33,073 nt of DNA from positions 1-33,073 of the forward strand of contig JWKY01000006.1 of the NCBI GenBank assembly GCA_000806015.1, read 5' to 3'. The DNA comes from an archaeon GW2011_AR19 (lineage in GTDB: Archaea > Nanobdellota > Nanobdellia > Pacearchaeales > GW2011-AR1). Below the pieces are notes generated by a model. The model saw only the letters and a list, made by a program, of their open reading frames with translations. It had not been told where the DNA came from and did not search any database. The stretch's first letter is position 1. Every line of letters begins with the position of its first letter. A program made the translations under genes and the position numbers. Positions 2,595-8,191 of this stretch are shown piece by piece.

Positions 2595-2731
2595 TAAAAA
2601 AATGATAAACCAAAACACTTTTAAATCAGAGAAGATTAAAAATATTAGCAATCTTAGGATTGTGAGTATGATCCCCGGTGATCGCAAGGTTGCCGGATGT
2701 TTTTATGTTTCTAATAATTTTAGAGGTTTTT

Positions 2732-3301
2732 ATGGAAGATACAATAATTTTTGTTGATGATGGTTTTTTTGGACTTGTTAAAAAACATTTTCAAAAACAA
2801 GATGGGAAACCAAAAAGATATCTTCAGTCATTTAGAAATATATGTAAAAAAGAAAATCTAAATTTAAAACATCTTTTTATTTATACTTGTCCGCCTTATC
2901 AAAGTCCAAAACCAACTAAAAAAGAAGATTTCTTGACGAGCAGATATCAAAATATGACAAAGATGTTAAGAAAAAAAAATTGGATTACTTTAAGGGAAGG
3001 AAGATGTCAAAAATTTATTAATCTGGATGGAAAAGAAGATTTTTGTCAAAAAGGGGTTGATGCTTTAATTATTATGGATATGTATGATATTAAAGAGAGT
3101 TATCCTAATGTTAAAAAAATAATTTTAATTGCTTCTGATTCGGATTTTGTCCCCCTAATTGAGAAAATGAAGAAAAGAGGCGTTGAAATCTTTATTTATA
3201 CCTATTTTAATAGAAAACGAAAATCAAAGTTCTCAACTTCCAATCATCTTTTAAAAGTTGCATCGCGTTGGACGATGTTAACAAAGGAGGATTTTGAATA
3301 A
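2732..3301 (+). CDS. NYN domain (LabA/DUF88-like, PIN-fold) putative nuclease; ORF track starts at 2678 but MEDTIIFVDDGFF is the likelier start
   Basis: N-terminal IIFVDDGFF, central DALIIMDMYDI, C-terminal IILIASDSDFVPLI, typical of NYN domains. Confidence 0.8.
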   Translation: MEDTIIFVDDGFFGLVKKHFQKQDGKPKRYLQSFRNICKKENLNLKHLFIYTCPPYQSPKPTKKEDFLTSRYQNMTKMLRKKNWITLREGRCQKFINLDGKEDFCQKGVDALIIMDMYDIKESYPNVKKIILIASDSDFVPLIEKMKKRGVEIFIYTYFNRKRKSKFSTSNHLLKVASRWTMLTKEDFE

Positions 3302-4317: not shown

Positions 4318-4647
4318 ATGAAAAAAGGAGATATTTTTCTCTTGGAACTTCCATTAAGCAATGGCCACGAACAATTTGGAATAAGACCCGCAATTGTTTT
4401 TTCTGAAGAAATTGGCAAAATGATTGTTGTAATTCCCTTAACAACTAAATTATCTGCTTTAAAATATTCTTTTACAATTAATATTGAAAATTCTAAATTA
4501 AATGGATTAAAAGAAAATTCTACGGCATTGTTGTTTCAGCTTCGCGCGCTTGATAAAAAGAGAATAAAAGACAAAATAGGAGAATTAGAAGAAAATTTAT
4601 TAAAAGAAATAGATAAATTGTTAATAGAGATGTTAAAACTAAAATGA
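4318..4647 (+). CDS. MazF/PemK-like toxin
   Basis: MKKGDIFLLELPLSNGHEQFGIRPAIVFSEE...VVIPLTTK...ALLFQLRALDKKRI. Confidence 0.85.
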   Translation: MKKGDIFLLELPLSNGHEQFGIRPAIVFSEEIGKMIVVIPLTTKLSALKYSFTINIENSKLNGLKENSTALLFQLRALDKKRIKDKIGELEENLLKEIDKLLIEMLKLK

Positions 4648-5148: not shown

Positions 5149-5499
5149 TCAAACACTTACCCTAATCACTATTTCATCAACAGCAATCTCGGGTTTATGT
5201 CTAACCCGTTTTTTAGTCTTTTCTTTGATTAATTCAATAAATCCAAATCTTTCAAGAAGTTTAATATCTTCCACGACTGACTTAAAATTTCTTTTAAGTT
5301 TTTTGGCTAAATCATATATTGATTTTGGCTCTTGAGTTTTTATAACGTGCAGCATTCTTGCTTTTTCATTATTCAATAACTGCCTTAAAGCAGACAATCC
5401 TTCAAAATTATAATCTGATTTAGAAATTTGCTTGTCTTTAATTAAATTAAATATTCCTTTTGATTCTTTTATTGTTATTTCCCTTGTTTTTGAAGCCAT
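5149..5499 (-). CDS. Winged-helix transcriptional regulator (HVO_A0114-like)
   Basis: RMLHVIKTQEPKSIYDLAKKLKRNFKSVVEDIKLLERFGFIEL. Confidence 0.7.
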   Translation of the reverse strand: MASKTREITIKESKGIFNLIKDKQISKSDYNFEGLSALRQLLNNEKARMLHVIKTQEPKSIYDLAKKLKRNFKSVVEDIKLLERFGFIELIKEKTKKRVRHKPEIAVDEIVIRVSV

Positions 5500-5607: not shown

Positions 5608-5630
5608 CAAGGTTTATAAATGGAACCTTG
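5608..5630 (+). promoter_or_regulatory. S-layer gene promoter: TATA box inside a perfect inverted repeat
   Basis: CAAGGTT-tataaatgg-AACCTTG; TTTATAAA at 5613-5620. Confidence 0.6.
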
Positions 5631-5639
5631 AAAAAGGAG

Positions 5640-5881
5640 TGTTTTTCCCTGTCTGGTTGGTAAAAGAGCCGTAAGCTTTTTAAAGAAAAAAGAAATCTTA
5701 TAATTACATCTTAATGATTAAGATGGCAAATCTACAGGGAATAGATTTAATATCTGCCTTGTGGAAATGTTTCAACATTCAGCCTCCCTGTGCTGTAGTT
5801 GAAAAAAAATGTTGTCGTAGGCAACATACGGGGTGAAATATTCCCTATATACAGATGAAAGGAGGTTTAAAAAAAATAAAA
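5640..5881 (+). promoter_or_regulatory. Long structured 5' leader of the S-layer-like gene
   Basis: About 240 nt between TATA and ATG, with hairpins 5766-5779 and 5809-5827, alternative CCCTGT/ACAGGG/TATTCCCT pairings, and aaaggaggt at 5858-5866. Confidence 0.45.
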
Positions 5882-8191
5882 ATGAAAATTAATTTTAGAA
5901 AAATTTCAGCTGTTGCTGCTAGTTTAATTATGACTGGTATGTCTGCTGGATTCGCTGCTGCTGCAAATTACCCTGCTCCTTTCGTAGAAGCGGGTGTAGC
6001 TAATGCAGCAATTGTTTCTGGTTCAGGTACTGGAGTTTCGGCTCTTGATGCTGTTGAAGCTGGAAACATACAAGCAAATCTTAATCTCGGAGTAACAAGC
6101 ACGAGTTCAACTCTTACTGGAGAAAATGTTGTTCAATTGGACAAGGCCAGTGATAAAATAAATTTAGGTGATGCATTAAACGGGCCTTTTGGGGCTACTG
6201 TTGATGATGCTGACTTAGATTTATTAAAAGATGTTGTTTACACTGCTGAAGATTCAGATACATTTGATGCTGAACAAAGAGTTACTTTAGGAAGCCCTAA
6301 ATTATCTCATTTCAGAGATTCTGATTATGAGAGTTTAGCAGGACTAAGTGATAAAACTCCAACTATTGGAATAAATATTTCAGATGGACAGCTTGTTATG
6401 AACTATACTCTTGACTTTCTTGATGACGCAGAATCAGATGTAGTAAGTTCTGAACTTGATGACCTTGAAGGAAGTTTCTTGCCCTTATTTGGTAAACAAT
6501 TCTATATTTCAGATTGGGATAATGGAACTGTTAATAATCAAGCAGGCAAGCTTACTTTACTTGATTCAGGCACAAAAGGAGTTGTTAAAGAAGGTGAAGT
6601 TACAACAGTCACTCTTGGAGCAACCTCTTATGATGTTGCTATTGATTACATAGATGCTGATAGTACAGCATTATCAGTTAATGGAGTTATAACTTCTGAT
6701 TTATTAGAAGGAGAAACTGAAAAATTAGCTGATGGAACATATGTAGGAGTTACTGATGTTAGAAGACTTGAAGTTGGCGGAGAAATTGGTACAGTAGAAT
6801 TTAGCTTAGGTGTAGGAAAACTTGAACTTACACATGGAGATGAAATTAAGTTAAATGGAGATACTGTTTCTGATGTTAGAGCATTTATGAGAAAAAGTGC
6901 GCCAAGTTCAGGAGTTGAAAAAATAGACTACATAGCACTTGAATGGAAAGCTGATGATGAGCTATTCCTTACACCAAAATCTGAGATTACTCTTCCAGGA
7001 ATGGGTGGTTTGAAATTCAGTATGACTGAATTTGTAAGACCTACAGAAGACAAACTTACTATTGCTGGTGACGGCGATACTAATGTTAAAATAACCCTTC
7101 CAATTAAGGATGGAACAGCAACAATACCTCTTTTATATGGTAATGCTACTGGTGATTTTGCAGGAGTTGGTAAAAACTATGATGAAAGACTTGCAACTTC
7201 CCCTACAACCAGACTTACATTTTGGTCCAAAAAGAATAATTTAGATTATCACAAATATTTTGTAGCAACATATAATGATAGTGATACTGCTGAATCATAT
7301 CTATTGGAATTAAAACCAAGAGAAGAAACGGGTGTTAGAAATGAGACAGATGTCTTAAATAAAGTAACAGGAGAAACTATCTCAAGTAAAAAAGCTGGTG
7401 ATAGTGTTAAAATTGGAGATGTTTCGTTTGATATTGAATTTGTCCATGTAAATAGCACTGACAAATATGTTAATATCACTGCAGGAACAAATGTAAACTT
7501 CAATACTGTTTTCTCAGTAGGTGGATTAAAAGTTTGGTTGCCTTATAGAGTTAGTAAAGCTACTAATAGTACTTTTGGTGAAGGAGATGATTTAGATGGA
7601 GCAGGTGGAGAAACTAATACAATCTTTGGTGTATATCCCGTTGCAGATACTGCAATAGGCGCTATTAATTTCACTAATGTTACTGATCTAGGAGCAGGAG
7701 GTTCTGCTGGACATAGTTGGGATACTTATTACCTTTCTATGGTTGGAGAGGATAAGGATGACAATATTGCTTCAGGACCATATTTTGCAGTTAGATTAGA
7801 TCCAAATGCAGATGGAGATATTGAAATAGATCAAATCAACAATAGTGTAGGCGCATTCGCAGGTTCAGGAGGTGGAACAGGTAAAGAACAAGGAACTACA
7901 AGCATTTATGAAGCGTATGTAGTTGGTTCTGCTGCAGGAGGTGGTGATATTGCTCCAAAAATACTTCACTATACAAAGCCAGATAGAGACTATGCTGAAG
8001 TTTATTATCCAACAGGCGCATCTCAATCGTATGCAAAAGTGTTCTTAACAGACATTTCTGCAGTGAGTGTGCCAGAAGGTGGAGCTGTTCTTGTAAAAGA
8101 TACTGAAGTTAGTAGTGTAGCAACAAAGAATCTTATTATTGTTGGAGGAAGCTGTATTAATTCAGCTGCTAATGCTAGTTGCTGGTTATGA
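5855..8191 (+). CDS. S-layer-like protein, C-terminally frameshifted; true start could be ATG 5882
   Basis: Signal peptide SAVAASLIMTGMSAGFAAAANYPAPFVEAG...; long Asp/Gly/Thr-rich ectodomain; ends at GGSCINSAANASCWL. Confidence 0.75.
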   Translation: MKGGLKKIKMKINFRKISAVAASLIMTGMSAGFAAAANYPAPFVEAGVANAAIVSGSGTGVSALDAVEAGNIQANLNLGVTSTSSTLTGENVVQLDKASDKINLGDALNGPFGATVDDADLDLLKDVVYTAEDSDTFDAEQRVTLGSPKLSHFRDSDYESLAGLSDKTPTIGINISDGQLVMNYTLDFLDDAESDVVSSELDDLEGSFLPLFGKQFYISDWDNGTVNNQAGKLTLLDSGTKGVVKEGEVTTVTLGATSYDVAIDYIDADSTALSVNGVITSDLLEGETEKLADGTYVGVTDVRRLEVGGEIGTVEFSLGVGKLELTHGDEIKLNGDTVSDVRAFMRKSAPSSGVEKIDYIALEWKADDELFLTPKSEITLPGMGGLKFSMTEFVRPTEDKLTIAGDGDTNVKITLPIKDGTATIPLLYGNATGDFAGVGKNYDERLATSPTTRLTFWSKKNNLDYHKYFVATYNDSDTAESYLLELKPREETGVRNETDVLNKVTGETISSKKAGDSVKIGDVSFDIEFVHVNSTDKYVNITAGTNVNFNTVFSVGGLKVWLPYRVSKATNSTFGEGDDLDGAGGETNTIFGVYPVADTAIGAINFTNVTDLGAGGSAGHSWDTYYLSMVGEDKDDNIASGPYFAVRLDPNADGDIEIDQINNSVGAFAGSGGGTGKEQGTTSIYEAYVVGSAAGGGDIAPKILHYTKPDRDYAEVYYPTGASQSYAKVFLTDISAVSVPEGGAVLVKDTEVSSVATKNLIIVGGSCINSAANASCWL

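Follow-up and report, generated by a model that had tools for sequence, protein, structure and literature searches.

The leader of the S-layer protein gene studied here contains a structured RNA, some 120 nt long and acting in cis, recognizable by its structure, its sense strand, and its exclusive position before that gene. The window analyzed, meaning the whole 33,073-nt stretch of DNA, comes from an archaeal MAG of 678 kb, in which it is contig C6. A preliminary description had singled out its S-layer leader as a candidate cis-regulatory RNA with mutually exclusive pairings. That candidacy is now strongly supported by covariation, by the placement of the element before the S-layer gene only, and by an asymmetry between G-U and A-C combinations in its helices. 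The parts of the locus are as follows.

5149 to 5499, minus strand: divergent winged-helix gene (PF25212, HVO_A0114), a candidate transcription regulator of the shared intergenic region
5613 to 5620, plus strand: TATA box of promoter P1, TTTATAAA, with a predicted start near 5640
5676 to 5684, plus strand: TATA-like box of promoter P2, CTTTTTAAA, conserved in the family, with a predicted start near 5702-5706
5858 to 5866, plus strand: Shine-Dalgarno sequence AAAGGAGGT (family form GAAAGGAGGT)
5882 to 8191, plus strand: gene for the 769-aa S-layer protein (weak match to S_layer_C, Pfam PF05124, with an E value of 3e-5 that narrowly passes the cut-off)

Relatives of the S-layer gene are present in 133 of the 147 genomes of its family, and the named genomes that carry them are nearly all Candidatus Pacearchaeota or Nanoarchaeota MAGs. 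The same-genus relative referred to below as the sister is contig JAUYHR010000186.1 of isolate C24_maxbin.164_sub. Slightly upstream of the divergent regulator lies a gene for a PemK/MazF-like toxin (4318-4647, plus strand; PF02452, E 2e-23), and the window also encodes an NYN-domain protein, a putative nuclease (2678-3301, plus strand; PF01936).

How long is the leader? Its length of about 240 nt had been what drew attention to it, and it is indeed long. With boxes beginning at 5613 and 5676, the usual archaeal TATA-to-start spacing places the starts near 5640 and 5702-5706, predicting a leader of ~243 nt from P1 and, beside it, a second of ~178 nt from P2. The 63 bp between the two boxes are typical, since a TATA pair was found in 71 of 87 leaders with a median spacing of 63 nt (5-95% range, 61-64.5), and a pair spaced 60-85 nt occurs in 68/87 leaders versus 5/435 shuffles. 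Leaders without the RNA element show this near-fixed tandem spacing too; it amounts to about six helical turns. As a genome-wide search pattern, the tandem pair was set aside as too AT-rich to be specific.

The following parts of the leader RNA and its possible alternatives bear on the argument.

5707 to 5725, plus strand: 5' hairpin CATCTTA-atgat-TAAGATG, located where the P2 transcript is predicted to begin
5728 to 5748, plus strand: H1, AAATCTA[CAGGGAA]TAGATTT, a small hairpin showing the pseudoknot strand in its loop (-3.1 kcal/mol)
5731 to 5765, plus strand: alternative 14-bp hairpin, UCUACAGGG (5731-5739) with CCUUGUGGA (5757-5765), which sequesters the pseudoknot strand
5734 to 5739, plus strand: pseudoknot strand ACAGGG (family ATAGGG), pairing with the H2 loop CCCTGT at 5786-5791
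5770 to 5804, plus strand: H2, TTTCAAC-att-CAGC-[CTCCCTGT]-GCTG-ta-GTTGAAA, whose loop CCCTGT (5786-5791) supplies the second side of the pseudoknot helix
5809 to 5827, plus strand: H3, ATGTTGTC-gta-GGCAACAT
5839 to 5846, plus strand: TATTCCCT, the third proposed partner, genus-specific; in a scan of 87 leaders, the window alone scored

The segments on which the preliminary description rested are all where it had placed them: ACAGGGAATA at 5734-5743, CCCTGT at both 5647-5652 and 5786-5791, TATTCCCT at 5839-5846, the Shine-Dalgarno sequence at 5858-5866, and the hairpin at 5809-5827. The window leader folds far better than expected (z = -4.70, with none of 200 dinucleotide shuffles equally good), as does that of the sister (z = -4.49), and the median over 70 family leaders is -3.3. 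The best nested fold of the window leader differs from the conserved fold because nested folding cannot hold a pseudoknot. Most of 87 leaders share one architecture: two TATA-like boxes, the 5' hairpin, ATAGGG, H2 with the loop CCCTAT, H3 (GTTGTC-ATA-GACAAC), GAAAGGAGGT, and ATG. H1 occurs in the window and many, though not all, of its relatives.

Covariation in the leaders of related S-layer genes, which had been named as a check, is strong in H2, H3, and the 5' hairpin, and the pseudoknot changes in a compensatory manner. Across five helices in 55 leaders there are 212 double-change cells, where shuffles give 51 +/- 8, and 94.3% of cells are paired against 38-51% for slid partners. This covariation beyond both kinds of control is the first mark of a conserved structured leader RNA. 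In H2, both sides change at all 11 modelled family pairs (55 leaders), and double changes were found at 11 of 12 pairs when the window genus was excluded (27 leaders). The hairpin proposed at 5809-5827 turned out to be H3, a family feature in which 99.7% of cells are paired and 4 of 6 pairs show double changes; the sister form, ATGTCGCC-gta-GGCGACAT, is compensatory relative to that of the window. In family helix 1, the 5' hairpin, 85.7% of cells are paired and double changes occur at all 5 pairs; the window's own hairpin is shifted relative to this helix of the covariance model. The other local hairpin that had been suggested, AATGTT-tc-AACATT at 5766-5779, was rejected: it has a 2-nt loop, clashes with the conserved H2, and is not a feature of the family.

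Could the inverted repeats instead be DNA operators, bound by the divergent winged-helix regulator? That protein is a candidate dedicated S-layer regulator: by tblastn, its gene and the S-layer gene are arranged divergently at 67 of 73 named loci, whether the RNA element is present or absent. H3, moreover, is a near-perfect palindrome. The departures within the helices, however, are 139 G-U cells against 11 A-C cells, which argues that the element acts as sense-strand RNA and largely refutes an operator. In addition, H2 covaries on both sides across very different sequences, and a pseudoknot of separated strands has no operator shape. We consider this explanation very improbable.

The central feature of the fold is the pseudoknot. 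Of the pairings proposed earlier for the segment at 5734-5743, the one with CCCTGT at 5786-5791 has proved to be a conserved pseudoknot, with no mispairing and with compensatory changes in three genera. In the 55-leader alignment its helix is 100% paired wherever both strands align, gaps being set aside. Compensatory changes affect 3 of its 6 pairs; the shuffled mean is 0.2, and none of 500 shuffles reaches the observed count. The three genera with double changes include that of the window (UA to CG). By strand and loop, the combinations are ATAGGG/CCCTAT in 46 leaders, ATGGGG/CCCTAT in 2, ACAGGG/CCCTGT in 2 (the window genus), ATGGGG/CCCCAT in 1, and GTGGGG/CCCCAC in 1, with gaps in three further leaders. 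The sequence preference of the model favors consensus-like leaders and so inflates the invariant part of these counts, but matched double changes could not arise in this way. The pseudoknot may be constitutive in much of the family, since nested folding leaves the strand mostly free in about half of the leaders and the loop free in nearly all.

What about the other pairings, and the idea that they exclude one another? The idea holds in part: the window genus has a competitor hairpin, but of the three pairings originally listed only that with 5786-5791 is conserved. The pairing with CCCTGT at 5647-5652 was rejected, since it does not hold in the sister, where the site reads GACTGC; the site lies upstream of promoter P2, and this pairing would be possible only in the longer transcript. 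The pairing with TATTCCCT at 5839-5846 is confined to the window genus (1/87 leaders by pattern scan), and covariation gives no information on it because its letters are identical in the sister. The competitor is the alternative hairpin at 5731-5765, at about -17 kcal/mol versus -3.1 for H1. Its duplex beats shuffled inserts (p 0.01-0.02), and in nested folding of the window it is preferred over the pseudoknot; being much stronger than H1, it is predicted to hide the strand. This hairpin occurs only in the window genus, with analogous competitors in a few other lineages. Of 41 leaders with an insert, 8 contain a competitor that outperforms shuffled sequences at p<0.05, where about two are expected by chance; these come from a handful of lineages, and the result is no more than suggestive.

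Such competition invites the reading that the leader is a regulatory switch, in which the pseudoknot would be stabilized by a small ligand or by a protein, perhaps that of the S-layer itself or one associated with the ribosome, and the choice between it and alternative pairings would alter translation or decay. Three observations are in keeping with this. (i) The pseudoknot strand is almost invariant. (ii) Competing partners exist in the window genus and, at the level just given, in other lineages. (iii) The core (5726-5808) is identical to that of the sister at 82 of 83 positions (99%), as expected if its bases serve more than one pairing; the leaders as a whole are 86% identical over 230 nt, and the spacer between the promoters about 70%. 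On the other hand, the competitors are limited to a few lineages, only a single gene is linked, unlike with most riboswitches, and no conserved alternative pairing extends as far as the ribosome site, which is predicted to be open. Its mean predicted openness is 0.47 versus 0.35 with shuffled leaders (p = 0.001), a modest effect, computed with the leader alone and nested pairs only. Nor was a riboswitch expression platform seen, in the form of a terminator or of a conserved alternative structure hiding the ribosome site; the 5839-5846 element is present in 1 of 87 leaders. A switch is best supported in the window genus; overall we regard it as possible but on the unlikely side.

How widespread is the element? 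A covariance model built from 27 leaders, with the window genus held out, recovered the window at 5704-5827 (E 1.2e-4). In searches kept within the phylum of the window, the first model gave one match per genome in 60 of 200 genomes of the order and in 33 of 378 of the class; with the second, the numbers were 59 of 180 for the order and 28 of 371 for the phylum. The element is present at about one copy per genome in some 60 genomes of the Pacearchaeota, which are tiny, symbiont-like archaea. Apart from two genomes that belong to two further families, all matches fall in one family. All matches with a readable downstream frame directly precede an S-layer ORF, at a similar distance from its start; the few unreadable ones lie at a contig end or have a frame that the simple start finder missed. 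This fixed sense-strand position before one gene is the second mark of a cis-acting leader RNA. A weak second match of one genome (G169:C21:50292-50395, minus strand, E 0.008) lies away from the main S-layer locus, and weak reverse-strand matches, such as window 5879-5809 (E 0.07), were treated as chance.

The position of the element bears on whether it might be an independent small RNA that ends before the S-layer gene by chance. Its own promoter and compact fold would suit one, but a sigma-70 promoter and terminator scan found no terminator-like site, the element occupies the same place at a similar distance from the S-layer start in every readable genome, and it was not found elsewhere. We think this highly unlikely. 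A translated upstream ORF (5723-5836, plus strand, 37 codons) is the least credible account of the conservation. The sister has it as an open frame of 38 codons, with a 3-nt indel that keeps the frame, but no Shine-Dalgarno sequence stands in front of it, and in many relatives outside the genus the pseudoknot strand reads TAATAG. No synonymous change was seen between window and sister; the changes alter residues and preserve base pairs, a pattern that does not look like that of coding sequence, and the ORF was rejected.

Not all S-layer loci have the element. It was found in 44 of 76 named loci; the roughly 40% with no model match have other leader types or leaders that have drifted beyond the model, and the exact fold is therefore dispensable for S-layer expression. 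Other leader types include TTCCTC..AAGAGGG (among L040, L044, L045, L051, L053, L054, and L097), CTGGCCAG with the same ATAGGG/CCCTAT motif (among L063, L070, L105, L119, and L123), and a CTTATRAY[..CCCTA]GTYATAAG hairpin (among L082, L087, L096, and L099).

The element does not appear to have been catalogued. At the gathering threshold, Rfam 15 matched only a tRNA in the window and nothing in 16 relatives, and a permissive scan of the window gave only weak minus-strand matches below threshold. When the core was sought across the order by DNA similarity alone, the search returned only the sister and short chance matches, and an exact-pattern search of viral contigs returned no match. No published description of the element was found in the literature searched, which covered few subscription papers, and the search turned up no structured cis-acting RNA in the DPANN group. 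To our knowledge, few such RNAs are known in archaea at all. Long structured leaders are found on the abundant S-layer mRNAs of Lactobacillus slpA and Thermus slpA, where they are linked to stability or autoregulation; hosts and sequences are unrelated, and we know of no architecture that they share with the Pacearchaeota element. Riboswitches and the pseudoknotted cis-regulatory leaders in Rfam resemble it in having a conserved pseudoknotted 5' leader with possible alternative pairing. They differ in that the Pacearchaeota element has no Rfam match, a single-gene context, no metabolic gene set, and no conserved sequestration of the ribosome site. Among described cases, the nearest that was found is the leader of another archaeal major S-layer gene, Methanosarcina slmA1, likened here by its description: it has a TATA promoter and a mapped 159-nt leader, conserved among three species, with proposed secondary structures of unknown role (PMC3361143). 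It belongs to another phylum, and the available portion of that account reports neither covariation nor a pseudoknot for it (PMC3361143).

What, then, might the leader RNA do? Probably it protects or tunes an abundant message. More specifically, we give about even odds to its being mainly a 5'-end stabilizer and translation-ready platform. S-layer mRNA is among the most abundant in the cell, and very high output is needed; this need, together with the open Shine-Dalgarno sequence and the location of the 5' hairpin where P2 transcripts are predicted to start, is the basis for the proposal. From 5' to 3', the parts are the 5' hairpin, the pseudoknot strand, H2 with its loop pairing, H3, and the A-rich Shine-Dalgarno region, predicted to be open. 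The hairpin at the start of the P2 transcript, with the pseudoknot behind it, would slow degradation that begins at the 5' end, and the same fold would leave the ribosome site free, keeping S-layer mRNA abundant. In the window genus, the strand could also be held in the stable alternative hairpin, making folding perhaps conditional. Counting against the proposal are the named S-layer loci with no match to the model and, in the window, the preference of nested folding for the alternative hairpin. The broader proposition, that this is a new, Pacearchaeota-specific class of archaeal regulatory RNA in which switching between the loop-strand pseudoknot and alternative hairpins controls S-layer synthesis, seems to us rather doubtful.

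Overall, the element combines a pseudoknot backed by compensatory changes with a clean context of one gene and over 50 natural variants; it also offers a ready covariance model and defined, testable mutants. These reduced archaea contact their hosts through the S-layer and, if the switch proposal is true, an RNA would control the synthesis of this surface. The leader provides a handle on the control of the surface coat in host-dependent archaea with small genomes.
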